A stretch of 64,000 nt of DNA from Terriglobales bacterium (lineage in GTDB: Bacteria; Acidobacteriota; Terriglobia; Terriglobales; Acidobacteriaceae), in contig JAOAPE010000010.1 in the NCBI GenBank assembly GCA_025462725.1, forward strand, positions 62,001 through 126,000, in the 5' to 3' direction. The translations under genes were made by a program, and so were the position numbers. Below the pieces are notes generated by a model. The model did no database searches. It was not told the origin of the DNA and was given only the letters and a program-made list of their open reading frames with translations. Numbering within the stretch: the first letter of the stretch is position 1; the number at the start of each line of letters is the position of its first letter. Positions 10,435 through 34,700 of the stretch are shown piece after piece.

Positions 10435-10435
10435 T

Positions 10436-10790
10436 GATTATGAACTTGTCATCCGGAGCGAAGCGATGCCGAGCCAGACAGCTATCGAAATCACAATTCA
10501 CAGATTACGAATCAAAATGTTTTCCTTTGCGATCCTCTGCGTCCTTTGCGGTTGAACCTTTTGCTTTTTCCTCAGGCCCAACCATTCACGGCTCAATGCT
10601 GAATGCCCTTGATTATGAACTTGTCACCCGAGCGGAGCGAAGCCAATGCCGAGCCAGACAGCTACCGACATCAAAACTCACAGATTACAACTCAAATTGT
10701 TTTCCTTTGCGATCCTCTGCGTCCTTTGCGGTTGAAGCTCTTGCTTTTTCCTTAGGCCCAACCATTCACGGCTGAATGCTGAATGCCCTG
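10436..10790. repeat. Intergenic tandem duplication, period 175 bases
   Basis: 10436-10610 and 10611-10790 are two diverged copies of one block. Each begins GATTATGAACTTGTCA and contains a TGTCAyCCG-type element, a CTCTGCGTCCTTTGCGG element and the end CTGAATGCTGAATGCCC. The region between the acylase and cmk therefore has no gene; the 111-residue frame across it is only the translated repeat. Confidence 0.9.
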
Positions 10791-10826
10791 TTGCCGACTA
10801 CTGACTACTTGCTACTGACTACTTGC
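10791..10826. repeat. Heptamer-like run ACTACTGACTACTTG
   Basis: A short imprecise tandem run based on GACTACT/TGCTACT directly after the 175-base duplication. It enters the 3' end of cmk (stop at 10805). One of several such runs in the window. Confidence 0.65.
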
Positions 10827-11506
10827 CTCTCCGCAATAATCTCCTCGACCCTCGCCACCACCTCATCCAGCGTCATCTCCGTCGAATCAATCCTTATCGC
10901 ATCCGCCGCGGCCTCTAGCGGAGAATTCGCCCGGCTCCTATCCCGCTGATCGCGCTCCCGCATCTCCTGCACGATCTTCGCCTGCTCCTCCGGCGACGCG
11001 GCCTGCTGCTTGAAACGCCTATCTCCCCGGATCTCCGCCGCAGCATCGAGAAATATCTTCACATCGGCATTCGGAAAGACTTTTGTCCCGATATCGCGCC
11101 CTTCCATCACCACTCCGCCCGCTTCGCCCATCTTCCGCTGCAATGCCACCATCCACTCGCGCACCTTGGGATGCACTGACACCCGCGACGCTGCATCAGT
11201 CACATCCTTCTCCCGGATGCGCTCAGAAATATTCTCTCCGTTGAGTAATACGCGATTGCCATCCATGCGTCGCTCCAACTGAATAGAAGATTCATGCGCC
11301 AACTCCATCAACCCGGCTTCATCATCGAAAGACACATCCGACATGATCGCCTTTAGCGCCAGCGCCCGATACATCGCTCCCGTCTCAATATTCAAATAGT
11401 TGTGCTTCCGCGCAATGCGCGAAGCAATGGTGCTCTTCCCCGCTCCCGCCGGCCCATCAATGGCGATAACCAAGCCACCCGGTCGCTTTTCTTTTTGTTC
11501 ATTCAC
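10805..11506 (-). CDS. cmk: cytidylate kinase
   Basis: A 233-residue P-loop kinase that phosphorylates CMP and dCMP with ATP. Walker A is DGPAGAGKST (about residue 17). The CMP-kinase features are all present: NIETGAMYRALAL (about 35), VMEGRDIGTKVFPNADVKIFLDA (about 135) and the lid RRFKQQ...RDQRDRSR. Length is normal. It is convergent with nothing close by. The gene upstream on the same strand (11739-13649) is separated by repeats, so cmk probably has its own promoter. Confidence 0.95.
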   Translation of the reverse strand: MNEQKEKRPGGLVIAIDGPAGAGKSTIASRIARKHNYLNIETGAMYRALALKAIMSDVSFDDEAGLMELAHESSIQLERRMDGNRVLLNGENISERIREKDVTDAASRVSVHPKVREWMVALQRKMGEAGGVVMEGRDIGTKVFPNADVKIFLDAAAEIRGDRRFKQQAASPEEQAKIVQEMRERDQRDRSRANSPLEAAADAIRIDSTEMTLDEVVARVEEIIAERQVVSSK

Positions 11507-11738
11507 CTGATGTTGTCATCCTGAGAGAAGCGCAGTGTAGTCAAAGGACAACGCCTTTGCCGTTACACTTTGCTTTTGCTTTTGACTTTTGAATTTACTC
11601 GAAACTAAAAACTAGAAACCAGAAACTGCTTCTTGTCATCCTTAGCGAAGCGTAGCGAAGTCGGGCCCCTATCACTCTGCGGGCATCTGCAACACACTGA
11701 GACCTAGATACCTCTGTGATCCTCGGTGTTCTCCGTGG
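11507..11738. repeat. Intergenic dispersed repeats
   Basis: No gene. Contains TGTCATCCTGAGAGAAGCG (11513-11550), an AAACTAAAAACTAGAAACCAG heptamer-like run (11597-11628), TGTCATCCTTAGCGAAGCG (11634-11664) and a CCTCGGTGTTCTCCGTGG element (11718-11760) that reaches into the 3' end of the next gene. Confidence 0.7.
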
Positions 11739-13649
11739 TTAAGGTTTTGGTCTCGGTTTTCTCGGGCCACCAAACTTCTTCGGCCCCCCGAACGACTTCT
11801 TGAACGCCGGACGCGGCGCGAAACTTTTGCGCTCACCCTCTCCAGCAGGACGGCCTTCTCCACTCGACGATTTTCGCGGACCAAAACTCTTCCGGTCCCC
11901 AAATGACTTTCTCTCACCGAACGGCTTCCGCTCTCCACCCGCCGCTCGATCGCCGAACGGCTTTCGCGGACCGAACGACTTCCGTTCACCTGAAGGCTTA
12001 TCACCGAAGCTCTTCCGCTCGCCAAACGGCTTCCGGTCACCAAAGCTCTTCCGTTCACCCGCAGGCCTATCGCCAAAACTCTTCCGCTCACCGAAAGGTT
12101 TCCGGTCACCGAACGATTTCCTCTCTCCACCCGGCCGATCCCCGAACGGCTTCCTCGCCCCAAACGGTTTCCGATCACCAAAAGATTTTCTCTCTCCAAA
12201 ACTCTTGCGCTCGCCCGATGGCTTATCTCCAAAGCTCTTTCTTTCCCCAAACGGTTTGCGCTCGCCAGCCGGTCGATCACCGAAAGGCTTACGCGCGCCA
12301 AACGTCTTCCGTTCACCGAAAGACTTGCGCTCGCCTATTGGTTTATCTCCAAAGCTCTTTCTCTCGCCAAACGGTTTCCGATCGCCAAAGGATTTCCGCT
12401 CTCCACCCGCCGCTCGGTCTCCAAAAGGTTTCTGCGCACCGAACGGTTTCTTGTCGCCGAAGGATTTCCGTTCACCACCCGCAGCTCGGTCCCCATACGG
12501 CTTTCGATCTCCGAAAGATTTTCGCTCGCCAAAGCTCTTTCGCTCTCCCGTGGGCCTGTCACCAAAACTCTTCCGGTCTCCAAATGGCTTTTTGTCGCCG
12601 AACGGCTTCCGGTCGCCCGTTGGTCTGTCGCCGAAGCTCTTGCCTCCGGTCTTCCCGAACTTCGAGAAAGGACCACTTGCGAATCTCGCCTTCTTCTCCG
12701 CCGAAGCGATCTTCCCCTGCTCTCTCGCCTGCCACGGACGTATCTTCCTTTCGCCAGCCGCAACCGGAACCGCTTCCTCCTCGCCGCCGCGCGGGAACAG
12801 CCGCAGCATGTTCTTGCCGCTCACCAGTACGTGATCGAACTCACGCGCGGCCACTAGCGCCTTGATCACTTCCGTTACCCGCGACCGCGGCACCAGGCGC
12901 GAGAAGAATTCTTCAACATCCTTCTGCTCCGCCGCCACCACCGCCTCCAGATACTTCGACACCAATGCTGACAGCGCTTCTCCCGCCGATATCTGTTTCC
13001 CAGCATTCACCTGCTCTGGTGCCCAGCGCTGCATCACGTCCCACTGCGCTTCTACTGGCTCACCGCTCTCCAGGCCTTTGTCCACGCGCGTGATCCGCAA
13101 CTTCGACCACAACGTGTGCAGCACCTTCTCTATCGCATTAACCGTTATCTCTTTCCCCAGTCGCTGTCGCAGATCATCTTCCGTGACCGGCCCATGCTCC
13201 TGGATCACTTTGAACGTATGCGTCGTCAACGCCTTTTCACCGCGCGCTCCCGCGCTGGGCGCAGTATTCGGATTGCGCTCACCTACCAGCGCGTAGAAAT
13301 ACGGAAACTCCGCCGCCGACACCAGCAGCGAACCGTCATCACCGAATCCCACTTCAAACGCCGACTTCTCAAACAACAACCGCACGAACAACTCTGAAGC
13401 CGCACGGGCGTCATCGTCCTCGAACGCCTGCTTCGCTGTCGGCAAATCTTCTTTCGATCCCTTGTACGCGCCGATAAACGTTGGCCCCAACACCGGTGGC
13501 TTTACCGGATACGCCAATGCGATCCCCACCGAATTAAGGAACTCGCGCGCATCATCAAGCGTGCGCATCTCGCGATAGTTCTCCGGCTTCACCGCCGGCA
13601 CGCGCCACTTTTTCTGCCGTTCCTTCTGTACGTCCTGCTCAAAAATCAT
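11739..13649 (-). CDS. AlkZ-related-like winged-helix protein with a long FG-repeat basic tail
   Basis: A 636-residue two-part protein. Residues 1-310 are folded and resemble, from memory, the AlkZ-related/DNA-glycosylase-like winged-helix family (AREFLNSVGIALAYPVK, FPYFYALVGERNP, VIQEHGPVTEDDLRQRLG). Residues from about 330 to the end are low complexity, with about 35 FG motifs in units such as KSFGDR, KPFGER and PAGERK. They are strongly basic and almost without hydrophobic residues other than Phe. Such tails are known from RNA-binding proteins and condensate-forming proteins. The gene lies directly downstream of mutL on the same strand (117-base gap), which fits a nucleic-acid role. Function is unproven. 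Confidence 0.75.
   Translation of the reverse strand: MIFEQDVQKERQKKWRVPAVKPENYREMRTLDDAREFLNSVGIALAYPVKPPVLGPTFIGAYKGSKEDLPTAKQAFEDDDARAASELFVRLLFEKSAFEVGFGDDGSLLVSAAEFPYFYALVGERNPNTAPSAGARGEKALTTHTFKVIQEHGPVTEDDLRQRLGKEITVNAIEKVLHTLWSKLRITRVDKGLESGEPVEAQWDVMQRWAPEQVNAGKQISAGEALSALVSKYLEAVVAAEQKDVEEFFSRLVPRSRVTEVIKALVAAREFDHVLVSGKNMLRLFPRGGEEEAVPVAAGERKIRPWQAREQGKIASAEKKARFASGPFSKFGKTGGKSFGDRPTGDRKPFGDKKPFGDRKSFGDRPTGERKSFGERKSFGDRKPYGDRAAGGERKSFGDKKPFGAQKPFGDRAAGGERKSFGDRKPFGERKSFGDKPIGERKSFGERKTFGARKPFGDRPAGERKPFGERKSFGDKPSGERKSFGERKSFGDRKPFGARKPFGDRPGGERKSFGDRKPFGERKSFGDRPAGERKSFGDRKPFGERKSFGDKPSGERKSFGPRKPFGDRAAGGERKPFGERKSFGDRKSFGPRKSSSGEGRPAGEGERKSFAPRPAFKKSFGGPKKFGGPRKPRPKP
11765..12660. 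repeat. Coding tandem repeats of the FG tail
   Basis: Diverged 18-21-base units encode K-S/P-F-G-D/E-R/K. They stay in frame throughout and are interspersed with PAGERK/AAGGERK spacers. Codon-level divergence between units suggests selection on the protein rather than recent slippage. Confidence 0.9.
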
Positions 13650-13766: not shown

Positions 13767-15809
13767 CTAGATCCTCTTGAACGCCTTCTGTATGTCCTTT
13801 AAAGAATACCTCAACACCACCGGCCTCCCATGCGGGCACGTCATCGGATAATCCGTCTTCGCCAATTCCTGCAGCAACCAATCCATCTTGTTCTGCTCCA
13901 GAGGCATGTTCACTTTGATGGCCGCATGACACGCAATGCTCGCCGCGATCCTGTGCCGAACCCTGTCCAGGTTCTCCGTCTGCTGCTCACGTTCGAACTG
14001 TTCCAGCAACTCGAACAGCATCTTCTCAATCTCCGGCGCATTCACTCCCGCTGGTGCTGTCTTCACCGCAATCGTCCGCGTGCCGAATGGCTCTACTTCA
14101 AACCCATTGGTGCGCAACTCCTCCGATATCTCCGTAAAGATCGCCTGCTGCCCCGGAGTGAGTTCAACGATCAGCGGCATCAGCAATCGCTGCCCTTGCA
14201 GCTTCTCCGTCTCCCGCTCGGCCAATATCTTTTCGAACAGCACCCGCTCATGCGCAACATGCTGATCAATGATCCACAATCCTTCATAGTTCACCGCCAG
14301 GATGAACGACTCCCGAATCTGTCCCAATGCCTTCAACGTACCCAAGCTGGTCAGATCAACAACCCCGGAATCTTCGTCACCATTGCTGACCACTCCCGCG
14401 CAGGTGTCACCAGCCGCGCCATTCGGCTGTTTACCGACACTCGCACCCCTATCCGCAGGATAGGGTGCGAGTGTCGAACTTAATGCCCTCACAATAGCCG
14501 CGTGATCGATGCGCGGCACAGCCACTGCCGCATTCCCGCCGACATCTTCCCCACCCTGAAACGCCAGCCGCCCGCTTACCTCCGTCACCATTGGTGCCTG
14601 CAAAACAAATCCATCCAGGCTTGGGGCTACGCCCGGGGCTGCCCCACTCTTGTCGCTTGCGACAGGGTGGATATTCATCGCGCCCGGCGTCAACGCCTGT
14701 CCCGCGCTCGGCTGCGCTGATATCTCGCGCGTGAATTGCGGTACCGGACGCGCGCGCATCAACGTCGCGCGAACCGTGTCGCGCACGAAATCATGTATGA
14801 ATGCCTGTTGCCGAAATCTCACTTCCGTCTTCGACGGATGCACATTCGCATCCACTTCTTCCGACGGCATCTCCAAAAACAGCAGCACCACCGGAAAAAC
14901 CGTCGGCGGAAGAATGTTGCGATACGCCTCTGTTAATGCATGCTGCACGAGCCTGTCGCGTATCAATCTGTTGTTCACAAAAATGAAAATGGAATTCCGA
15001 TTCAGCTTTTGTATCTCCGGCTTCGACACAAATCCGTGCACGCGAATCTTGCCCGGCAACGGCTTTTCGTAATCTTCATCGCGCCGCCACGGCGGCGGCT
15101 CCGGCAATCCCACCCGCTCCAGGTCAGCTTCCGCCGCCACCGGAAGAAGTTGGTCAAGGGTATCTTTTCCGAAAACTTGATATATGCGCTCCGCATGCGT
15201 CTTTACAGGTGTTGCAACAAGGATCGCGTTCGTCGCCGAATGTAATTCGAAATGTTTCTCCGGATGCGCCAACGCGTAATGCGTAACCAGCGATGCTATG
15301 TGCGACAACTCCGTCGACTCCGCCTTTAAGAATTTCTTGCGCGCCGGCGTGTTGAAGAAAAGATCTTTCACCGTCACGGACGTGCCTTTCGGCAATCCCG
15401 CCTCTTCCACTTTCAAAAACTTTCCGCCGGCAATCTCGATCAAAGATCCCGCCGGCTCATCCGCCGCGCATGTTTCTAGCGTAAGCCGCGATACGGATGC
15501 GATCGACGGCAAACCTTCGCCGCGAAAACCCAGCGTAGAAATCGTCAGCAGATCTTCCGCATTTTTTATCTTTGAAGTCGCGTGCCGCTCGAACGCAAGC
15601 ATCGCATCATCGCGCACCATGCCCGAACCGTTATCGGTGACTTGCATCAACTTTTTTCCACCGGCTTCCACCTGCACGCGAATGCGCGTCGCGCCGGCAT
15701 CTAGAGAGTTTTCCAGCAACTCTTTTACGACCGACGAGGGCCGCTCGACGACCTCGCCGGCAGCTATTTTGTTCGCGACATTTTCAGATAAAACGTGGAT
15801 GCGGCCCAT
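13767..15809 (-). CDS. mutL: DNA mismatch repair protein MutL
   Basis: A 680-residue MutL. The GHKL ATPase domain (about 1-340) has NKIAAGEVVERPSSVVKELLENSLDAGA, DNGSGM and GFRGEGLPSIASVS. The C-terminal dimerisation domain (about 490-680) carries the endonuclease motif DQHVAHERVLFE (consensus DQHAxxExxxxE, Ala replaced by Val), ACHAAIKVN and CPHGRPVV. It is therefore probably a nicking MutL of the kind found in bacteria without MutH. The linker holds two insertions that look like genomic repeat elements translated in frame (about residues 380-389 and 444-458). mutS is not in the window. Confidence 0.95.
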   Translation of the reverse strand: MGRIHVLSENVANKIAAGEVVERPSSVVKELLENSLDAGATRIRVQVEAGGKKLMQVTDNGSGMVRDDAMLAFERHATSKIKNAEDLLTISTLGFRGEGLPSIASVSRLTLETCAADEPAGSLIEIAGGKFLKVEEAGLPKGTSVTVKDLFFNTPARKKFLKAESTELSHIASLVTHYALAHPEKHFELHSATNAILVATPVKTHAERIYQVFGKDTLDQLLPVAAEADLERVGLPEPPPWRRDEDYEKPLPGKIRVHGFVSKPEIQKLNRNSIFIFVNNRLIRDRLVQHALTEAYRNILPPTVFPVVLLFLEMPSEEVDANVHPSKTEVRFRQQAFIHDFVRDTVRATLMRARPVPQFTREISAQPSAGQALTPGAMNIHPVASDKSGAAPGVAPSLDGFVLQAPMVTEVSGRLAFQGGEDVGGNAAVAVPRIDHAAIVRALSSTLAPYPADRGASVGKQPNGAAGDTCAGVVSNGDEDSGVVDLTSLGTLKALGQIRESFILAVNYEGLWIIDQHVAHERVLFEKILAERETEKLQGQRLLMPLIVELTPGQQAIFTEISEELRTNGFEVEPFGTRTIAVKTAPAGVNAPEIEKMLFELLEQFEREQQTENLDRVRHRIAASIACHAAIKVNMPLEQNKMDWLLQELAKTDYPMTCPHGRPVVLRYSLKDIQKAFKRI
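14435..14476. repeat. Long inverted repeat inside the mutL linker
   Basis: Arms CGACACTCGCACCCcTATCC and GGATAGGGTGCGAGTGTCG are perfect except for one extra C, with a three-base loop. The structure is in frame and encodes about residues 444-458 (STLAPYPADRGASVG). It looks like a REP-type palindrome fixed in a coding linker. Confidence 0.85.
14616..14670. repeat. Second repeat-like hairpin inside the mutL linker
   Basis: CCACTCTTGTCGC...GCGACAGGGTGG forms a near-palindrome preceded by GGGGCTACGCCCGGGGCTGCC. It encodes about residues 380-398 (HPVASDKSGAAPGVAPS). It resembles intergenic elements rather than a MutL domain. Confidence 0.65.
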
Positions 15810-18003: not shown

Positions 18004-18107
18004 TTTTCAAATAACCACAGAGAGCACAGAGGCGCACAGAGAAAACCAATATTTAACCGCGGATAAAAGCGGATCAAATCTGATCAAACAAAACCAAAAA
18101 CATTTCT

Positions 18108-21375: not shown

Positions 21376-21502
21376 GTGCACTATGAAACTAAGGGGAAAG
21401 TATAGCAGAAGGGCGAGAAGCAGTTTCGAGTCGAAGGCAAAAACAAAAGCTTTCACCACGGAGAGCACGGAGAACACGGAGGGACGCGGACAAAAGCCAA
21501 GG

Positions 21503-28712: not shown

Positions 28713-28947
28713 GAGTGGGGAGTTGTAGCATTCGAGTTCCGTTTTGGGATGGCGAGATTGGGAAATTTACGAAATCCGGAATTAAGTCAGAAATCAAAAT
28801 CTTGAACCACAGAGGACACAAAGGGTTCACAAAGAAAACAAAAGAGGGCGGGATTGGAGTGCTGAGTGGCTTGGGAGGTGGTTGCAAACGTGGTATTTTC
28901 AATAGATTGCAAGGATTTGAAGTTCGTACCTGTACGGTTCCCTATAA
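28713..28947. repeat. Divergent intergenic region
   Basis: No gene. Contains an inverted CTTTGTG-type dispersed element (AACCACAGAGGACACAAAGG) at 28803-28840, shared with 18009 and 21455. It should hold promoters of both the TonB receptor and the carbonic-anhydrase gene, but none is clear. Confidence 0.5.
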
Positions 28948-33377: not shown

Positions 33378-34700
33378 CTATCGCGGGCGGGCGATGAAGC
33401 CGTGGTCTCCTGCAGCGCTTCCTTCTACAGTTGAGAAAATTCCTACGACTACTCCAGTGTTGTTTGTGTCCTGCGCTTGGACATTCGTCGAGTCAGGGAC
33501 CACGACGTCGAAGAATGTACTGCCACTCTTGAAGAATCCGGAGAGAGGCTTGTTCGACGAGGTCCACAGGCCCGTGATCTGCTGAGTGTCATTGACGCCA
33601 TTGGCTTCGGTGTCGCCGGAGGTGGGCACGTTGAAGGTGGTGAAGCTAGTACCGCCGGTTGCAATATACCCAACGACATTGCCTCCGACCACGCCGACGA
33701 TGTCGCCATTATTGTTGATGTCTTTCGCGAAGTTGCCGCCAGTGATGGAGTTTGGGGCGTCGAAGAGGCGGAAGGTGCCGTTCGGATCGCGAACGTATCC
33801 GTGGGCGGTGCTGTTGGTGAAGTTGGCGCGTCCGACGATGGTGCCAGCGGTGTTGATGCCGTTGGCTTCGGTGGCGAAAACGTTGGGATCAGGGAAGGCG
33901 ATGCTGGTGAAGGTGCCGGCGTGGAGCAGGAATCCGGTAAGGACTCCGTTGGGAGCGGCGTACTCGCCGACAATGTCGCCATTGTCATTGATCTTGTTTG
34001 CGCGGGTAAATTTGTTCGCGCCAGGGAAATCAATGGTGGTAAAAACTCCGTTCGTCAGCAAGTAACCGTGTGTGCCGTTGGCGTCGGCGAATTCTCCCAC
34101 GACATCACCGAGGTTGTTGATGCCGAATGCATTCGTGTGGCTTGCCCCGGGGACATCGATCTGTGTGTAGCTGGCAGAGTATGCGGGGATGACTTCGTTG
34201 CAAGGGCCGGTGCTGAAGCTCCAGGTGAATGGGCCGCCGGAGAACCCGTTGATGGTGGCAGTGTATGTGGTGACCGCGCCGAAGGCCTCTGGAGTTTGTC
34301 GTCCGCCGGGGCCGACAATAAAGGTGGCGGTGTTGGTGGCGGTATCAAAGGTGGCTGCGCCACTAACATTTCCATTCGGACCGGTGACGGTGAAATTGCT
34401 CGCTGTGAAGTTACTCGGCCCGGCGCCAGCGTTGAACCGCACCGTTAGTGTCGAGAATTGCGGGACGCAGGTTGCACCGGCCATAGGAGTGACGGATTGT
34501 ACGGCTGCAGGTTGCGGAGTGGGTGACGGAGTTGGAGTCGGCGATGGCGTTGGAGTGGGCGATGGCGTTGGGGTGGGAGCAGGCGCGGGAGTGCCAGCAA
34601 TCTTCTGAGGCGTGGGCGTCGTTGGAGTGGAGTTGTCGCCGCCTCCGCATCCTGAAATGGTTAATGCAAGCAACAGGAGAAAAGCAGAGACAATCCGCAT
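33378..34700 (-). CDS. HAF-repeat lipoprotein
   Basis: A 440-residue secreted lipoprotein. The signal MRIVSAFLLLLALTISGC ends in a lipobox (SGC). A Pro-Thr-Ser linker (about 35-65) leads to a beta-sandwich-like domain (about 75-170). Tandem HAF-type repeats (about 180-440) follow, with GINNLGDVVGEF, KINDNGDIVGEY and DINNNGDIVGVV, which are extracellular beta units known in Acidobacteria. The start chosen is ATG 34700 (GGGG before it). The role is unknown; it is probably surface exposed. It diverges from the Tat-type gene. Confidence 0.85.
   Translation of the reverse strand: MRIVSAFLLLLALTISGCGGGDNSTPTTPTPQKIAGTPAPAPTPTPSPTPTPSPTPTPSPTPQPAAVQSVTPMAGATCVPQFSTLTVRFNAGAGPSNFTASNFTVTGPNGNVSGAATFDTATNTATFIVGPGGRQTPEAFGAVTTYTATINGFSGGPFTWSFSTGPCNEVIPAYSASYTQIDVPGASHTNAFGINNLGDVVGEFADANGTHGYLLTNGVFTTIDFPGANKFTRANKINDNGDIVGEYAAPNGVLTGFLLHAGTFTSIAFPDPNVFATEANGINTAGTIVGRANFTNSTAHGYVRDPNGTFRLFDAPNSITGGNFAKDINNNGDIVGVVGGNVVGYIATGGTSFTTFNVPTSGDTEANGVNDTQQITGLWTSSNKPLSGFFKSGSTFFDVVVPDSTNVQAQDTNNTGVVVGIFSTVEGSAAGDHGFIARPR

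Follow-up and report, generated by a model that had tools for sequence, protein, structure and literature searches.

A mutL-linked, non-canonical AlkZ-related protein with an FG-hexad tail in Acidobacteriota

Introduction

What should be expected of a protein that joins a domain related to AlkZ-type DNA glycosylases to a long array of FG-containing repeats, and whose gene stands directly behind mutL? The question is raised by a gene of a Terriglobales bacterium, found in the window (the whole stretch of DNA that was analyzed, 64,000 nucleotides long). It concerns more than a single genome: throughout its family the gene is an uncharacterized neighbor of mutL, and the phylum, Acidobacteriota, is abundant in soil.

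According to PMC7367128 and PMC9040887, the glycosylases AlkZ, YcaQ and AZL2 use the motifs (Q/H)PhiQ, QPhiD or HPhi(S/T)(D/E), and AlkZ/YcaQ members act on alkyl adducts and crosslinks. The C-terminal part of Lhr (Lhr-CTD), as described in PMC10953399, is AlkZ-like and lacks QxQ, has a catalytic Asp, and is reported to remove uracil. Disordered protein parts are also discussed in bacterial genome maintenance, where SSB is presented as a protein whose disordered part drives condensation (PMC9312465, PMC11947617).

Results

Gene and protein architecture

The open reading frame at 11739..13649 (minus strand) encodes one protein of 636 aa with an ATG start, in which an AlkZ-related domain part (residues 1-290; 12780..13649, minus strand) precedes a repeat tail (residues 337-636; 11742..12641, minus strand). 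Long plus-strand frames over the gene, such as 11800..12834, are read as shadows of the repeat. Upstream, after a gap of 117 bp, lies mutL (13767..15809, minus strand; MutL_C 5e-37, DNA_mis_repair 1.4e-33), and downstream lies cmk, encoding cytidylate kinase (10805..11506, minus strand; PF02224, 4.2e-71). The initial annotation had described a single protein with an AlkZ-related N-terminus, a tail of about 35 FG and mutL adjoining it, and this description was confirmed by the 636-aa frame, the Pfam matches and a count of 35 FG.

The tail consists of six-residue basic units, K-[SP]-F-G-[DE]-[RK], with PAGE-type spacers between some of them. Residues 337-636 (300 aa) contain 34 FG, in agreement with the annotated tail of about 300 residues in K-S/P-F-G-D/E-R units. 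Over residues 314-636 we counted 35 FG, whereas 2000 shuffles averaged 7.1 and never exceeded 14; the same residues hold 35 hexads of the form [KR]x[FY]G[DEAGP][RKQP], and [DE][RK]K[SPT]FG occurs there 27 times. Successive FG are mostly 6 residues apart, with distances of 11 or 12 at the PAGE-type spacers, 18 once and 31 once; correspondingly, TRF reports a 69-nt (23-aa) period in part of the array and periods of 18, 33, 36 or 72 nt elsewhere. Residues 314-636 are hydrophilic and net positive (K/R 29%, D/E 13%; f+ 0.29, f- 0.13), a mean H of 0.328 against a boundary of 0.470 places them in the disordered region of the Uversky plot, and their charges are more mixed than in 500 of 500 shuffles. 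By these sequence measures the window tail is presumably disordered. It had been likened to FG- or RG-rich tails, and the likeness stands for FG set in K/R-rich units and falls for RG, of which the tail contains none.

Relation of the domain to AlkZ

Two curated Pfam families bear out the annotated AlkZ relation of the N-terminal part, both above their cut-offs: AlkZ-like (PF06224) matches residues 89-284 (12798-13385, minus strand) at 2.1e-13 and 51.1 bits against a cut-off of 25.9, and AlkZ-rel (PF24741) matches residues 107-249 with 28 bits against 26.5. Across the 52 family members, PF06224 is matched by 15 and PF24741 by 30 (E<=0.01). When the 52-row alignment of the family was compared locally by hhalign with canonical AlkZ relatives, the probability was 86 and the pairwise E 5e-6; the canonical set consisted of 7 rows recovered from 30 loci and included a 94-aa stray.

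The relation is partial in two respects. The PF06224 match covers only positions 32-227 of the 329 in the profile, whereas canonical relatives match 1-329. Because the match ends at 227 and the tail-less orthologues of the same family themselves stop at about 286-320 residues, the C-terminal third is absent family-wide and not simply replaced by the tail. The second respect is the catalytic motif. Six acidobacterial canonical relatives carry QAQ one or two residues after a conserved G, and this G is present in 48 of the 52 rows of the window-protein family, the other 4 being gapped. The window protein has GIALAYP (residues 42-48; 13506..13526, minus strand) at the site of the G-x(1-2)-Q-Phi-Q/D of AlkZ/YcaQ-type proteins, and the triplet is absent. 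None of the 52 rows (4 of them gapped there) has, beginning in columns 42-48, a Q or H followed two columns on by Q, D, S or T. Scattered Q/H-x-Q/D/S/T triplets begin at columns 49-53 in 5 of the 52 rows, the gapped hhalign register puts P-V-K at the catalytic-motif position, and a [QH]Phi[QDST] triplet occurs somewhere in the first 80 residues of 19 of 53 proteins, often at residue 5. Judged by its sequence, the window protein departs from canonical AlkZ, with no QPhiQ or QPhiD in the equivalent columns and an unmatched C-terminal third.

Other polar residues are well conserved. The family alignment contains the motif [YF]xLxG[DE][RK]xx[KR]xxP (residues 117-131; 13257..13301, minus strand), with D/E at residue 124 in 48 of 52 rows and K/R at residue 125 in 49 of 52; residue 128 is K/R in 49 of 51 rows and N in the window protein. 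Near the domain end it contains RS[RK]xx[ED], represented in the window protein by RSRVTE (residues 255-260; 12870..12887, minus strand). A profile search of PDB sequences returned no relative at E<=10, and an AlphaFold model of the window domain and three relatives (a 4-sequence alignment) reached a mean pLDDT of 43, so that an AlkZ-type fold is presumed from the sequence profiles. NCBIfam and PADLOC gave no match at E<=0.01 in the window protein or in any of the 52 members. The description "glycosylase-like" is accordingly narrowed: the profile relation stands, and the term applies at profile level only, since the catalytic QPhiQ/QPhiD is absent from the equivalent columns of the 52 aligned members and the C-terminal third is unmatched.

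The mutL-cmk neighborhood

Of 300 genomes of the window's family, 284 carry the domain, and among the 207 good ones 205 do; it also occurs in 38 of 41 relatives and in 58 of 200 genomes of the class. The nearest named records are metagenome-assembled genomes labeled Candidatus Angelobacter, Acidobacteriaceae and Acidobacteriales. We assembled a locus sample of the window and 60 fetched stretches, of which 57 contain the domain by tblastn and 50 of these also mutL; all 50 belong to the window's family (f1) and a sister family (f2). In every one of the 50, mutL lies upstream of the domain gene on the same strand, so the annotated place directly behind mutL, measured here at 117 bp on the same strand, turned out to be an order kept across two families. 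The gap is below 200 bp in 36 of the 50, and the genes overlap in 4 (in L110 through start choice); mutL lies 2270 bp off in L093 and 4652 bp off in L092. Downstream, 41 of the 50 have cmk next, in the same orientation, and the Pfam families around the gene are MutL, Cmk, PheT and a penicillin-amidase-family protein. Among 13 further same-family loci, mutL adjoins in 12 and the remaining one is cut.

Seven domain loci are without mutL: four end at a contig end (L064, L065, L073, L116), and L104, L108 and L121 have no mutL within a flank of about 6 kb. No mutL was found in 11 distant-relative loci outside the two families (L113-L116 and L228-L234, one of them cut), and the link is therefore old within the two families and, as seen here, no older. 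Gene order can persist without functional coupling.

Several other features of the window and its genome were recorded. The MutL sequence (13767-15809) contains DQHVAHE in its C-terminal part, which we take to resemble the endonuclease motif carried by MutL proteins that are not of the E. coli type. A dispersed, intergenic-looking element with the core CATCCTGAGCGAAGCGNAG occurs at 68 places in the window genome with up to 2 mismatches (41 forward, 27 reverse; control 0), and GTCATCCTGAGCGAAGCG has 6 matches in the window against 0.09 expected, at 1112, 3848, 10448, 11515, 11635 and 38514. Between the penicillin-amidase-family gene and cmk, 10435-10789 holds two 180-bp direct copies that match at 90% and contain one match to this first dispersed element. 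A second dispersed motif, CTCNGTGNTCTCYGTGGTTAA, is found 4 times in the window with up to 3 mismatches against 0.02 expected (11722-11742, 18011-18031, 21452-21472 and 28803-28823), its first copy covering the stop codon of the domain gene. Farther away, at 34516-34593, lies a tandem array of 18-nt units (GGAGTGGGCGATGGCGTT) in 3-4 copies.

Distribution of the tail and its tryptophan motif

A tail, defined as at least 100 residues after the domain and scored in the 57 loci, is present in 33: all 5 of the window's genus, G017 of its group, and 27 of a divergent clade, in which every uncut member has one (27/27, two of them short, with 123 and 130 residues). The 24 tail-less entries comprise 17 of the same family, with 40-53% identity to the window domain, 4 of the sister family f2, 1 of a distant family, and 2 cut by contig ends. 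Further same-family genomes, checked because of their long open frames, gave 10-65 residues after the domain in 9 genomes on the window's side, the longest being a basic mini-tail (G520), and 432-506 residues in 4 of the other clade. Hexads like those of the window recur in some divergent-clade tails, for example in G145 (PSYGDRKPFGERKSFGDRKPF), and tails poor in FG (0-3 FG) occur in the genus groups g3, g9, g13, g17, g18 and g37. Whether orthologues keep the tail thus has a divided answer, with retention in 5 of 5 same-genus and 27 of 27 uncut divergent-clade members and absence from 17 of the same family. This pattern marks the tail as a lineage trait, and since tail-less orthologues share the same gene order, the tail appears dispensable for the core function.

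The tail of the window protein contains a single Trp, within RPWQ (residues 304-307; 12729..12740, minus strand). The corresponding pattern, [RK]PW[DEQNA], is found in 19 of the 33 tails, where shuffling each tail gives an expectation of 0.31 that serves as a guide and not as a test, the pattern having been defined after inspection of the tails. In 16 of these 19 it holds the tail's sole Trp. The other 14 tails lack it, 6 of them being without any Trp, and so do all 24 tail-less entries. It spans five genus groups (g1, g20, g30, g32 and g34), with related rows counted repeatedly. In the window genus 15 residues separate it from the domain boundary; among the 14 others the distance is 70-127 residues for 13 and 441 for L087, and such a variable position may be compatible with a short linear motif.

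The MutL tree and the domain tree each imply 3 changes of tail state. A single clade of all tail-bearers was not rejected by either (p-AU 0.143 for MutL, 0.245 for the domain; 0.524 for the domain with G017, G011 and G022 dropped), and the proposal of three independent tail gains was withdrawn for this reason. The Trp motif, which occurs both in the window genus and in the other clade, would be more in keeping with common descent followed by losses.

Selection on the tail

Within the window, the 35 units compared in the sense frame have pS 0.89 and pN 0.21, a pN/pS of 0.23 that is biased downward because the units were anchored on FG; among the other frames, four gave 1.36-2.18 and antisense +2 gave 0.48. 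In three tails of the other clade (L099, L100 and L085), the sense ratios of 0.47-0.50 hardly differ from the 0.53-0.59 of antisense +2. Six orthologue pairs, compared without FG anchoring, gave tail pN/pS values of 0.16, 0.27, 0.28, 0.41, 0.08 and 0.11; the corresponding domain values, in the same order, are 0.05, 0.22, 0.20, 0.19, 0.07 and 0.06. This indicates protein-level constraint on the tail, somewhat weaker than on the domain.

These values bear on whether the tail could be functionless low-complexity sequence produced by repeat slippage. Orthologue tails do vary in length and make-up, and 17 same-family loci lack one, as slippage would allow; against it, synonymous sites among the window units are near saturation while the amino acids are retained, and tail pN/pS stays at 0.08-0.41 between orthologues. 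Neutral repeat expansion in its simple form is refuted for the pairs tested, and we regard a functionless tail in general as very improbable.

Similar tails elsewhere

A search of the window genome with the tail (E<=10) returned nothing beyond this gene and three stretches antisense to its own array. The same genome has 11 DEAD-type matches; the 6 whose C-terminus lies within the fetched sequence lack such a tail, and 5 are cut. When 149 genomes of the phylum were searched, 14 had matches. In five other same-family genomes the match is the tail behind the same AlkZ-related domain. Eight matched genomes lie outside the family, and six of them were inspected (G239 and G363 were left out). One locus, from another family of the phylum (L239:1-1830), encodes a DEAD-box helicase that has a DbpA domain and ends in FGxKK[ED] repeats; because of this helicase, a tail of this type can be said to go with nucleic acid. 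Five further frames, from other acidobacterial families (L240, L244, L252, L250 and L241), are subtilase-like as named by eye and end in long WGD-type repeats (WGDTA, LWGDG, ILWADG); as relatives of the tail they were rejected, the matches being taken as due to chance and partly antisense.

Discussion

We tentatively favor, at somewhat less than an even chance, the reading that the window protein is produced along with MutL and acts in repair as a DNA-binding accessory, not as a standard AlkZ glycosylase. Within the AlkZ-like/HTH_42 group it would be a non-canonical member, short at its C-terminus, and its tail would provide multivalent nucleic-acid contact. The winged-helix-type domain would contact DNA, the K/R residues of the tail would bind the phosphate backbone, and its regularly spaced Phe residues could act as weak stickers; the protein would thereby gain multivalent contact with DNA (or RNA) and a raised local concentration near MutL, with the single RPWQ motif as a candidate docking peptide. 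We infer DNA binding, co-expression with and a functional link to MutL, and nucleic-acid binding by the tail; condensate formation by the tail would be speculative, if plausible from the analogy with SSB. A bolder form makes the protein a mismatch-repair scaffold, in which an enzymatically inactive AlkZ-fold domain would read lesions or DNA structure, RPW would dock a partner (MutL, a clamp or another), and the FG tail would gather MutL into a repair condensate in these Acidobacteriota; this we consider quite improbable as a whole.

The protein might instead be an active glycosylase with a different active site, as in the C-terminal part of E. coli Lhr, its tail helping it to slide along or stay on DNA. 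Activity is compatible with the missing QxQ, since Lhr-CTD without QxQ is reported in PMC10953399 as a uracil glycosylase, and the conserved polar motifs G[DE][RK] and RS[RK]xx[ED] could form a site. Yet no catalytic residue could be placed, the match to the AlkZ-like profile (32-227 of 329) leaves out its C-terminal third, and the segment around G42 is missing in 4 of 52 rows, which leaves this alternative rather unlikely. About equally doubtful is an RNA-associated protein, acting through its tail as an RNA binder or as a component of an RNP body, for which the mutL neighborhood would be historical. Basic tails of the FG/RG type are characteristic of RNA-binding proteins, and the only similar tail on another protein class is that of the DEAD-box/DbpA helicase; but the place behind mutL is kept in members only about 25-30% identical to the window protein, the tail search of the window genome gave only this gene and its antisense shadows, and six uncut C-termini among the DEAD-type matches there are without such a tail.

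That the protein is an AZL glycosylase conferring self-resistance to a genotoxic natural product seems to us extremely improbable. Streptomyces AZL proteins have that role according to PMC9040887, the closest named relative is labeled Candidatus Angelobacter, and this name occurs in a paper on a soil acidobacterial genus rich in biosynthetic gene clusters (PMC9723581); set against this are the absent catalytic motif, the presence of the gene in 284 of 300 family genomes, and its place between mutL and cmk. The family itself offers a natural series on one domain and in one gene order: the tail may be absent, short and basic, or long, and long tails may have or lack FG units and the Trp motif. 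Such a series would allow testing what a bacterial DNA-binding protein gains from a long sticker tail.

The domain belongs to a known group. In the open-licence papers searched, no counterpart turned up of the combined missing catalytic residues, mutL neighborhood, selected FG-hexad tail and Trp motif, and for Acidobacteria none dealt with disordered tails, FG repeats, HTH_42 or a mutL/cmk operon. With AlkZ/YcaQ (AlkX; HTH_42, PF06224) the window protein shares the profile match over residues 89-284 and a presumed winged-helix DNA-binding fold, and it differs in lacking QPhiQ/QPhiD and the C-terminal third, in its linkage to mutL and in its long tail. Its likeness to Lhr-CTD is an AlkZ-like segment without QxQ, as described for Lhr in PMC10953399; unlike Lhr-CTD, it has no helicase fusion and no catalytic Asp could be placed (the middle of PF06224 is matched by some frames about 1400-1700 aa long, which we take to be Lhr from their size). 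SSB resembles it in joining a folded DNA-binding domain to a disordered part in a genome-maintenance protein, the window tail being presumed disordered, but the low-complexity part of SSB is Gly-rich according to PMC9312465, whereas the window tail is rich in K, R, F and G and net positive. The DEAD-box/DbpA-type helicase of L239 is alike in its C-terminal FGxKK[ED] repeats and different in its folded part and its family.
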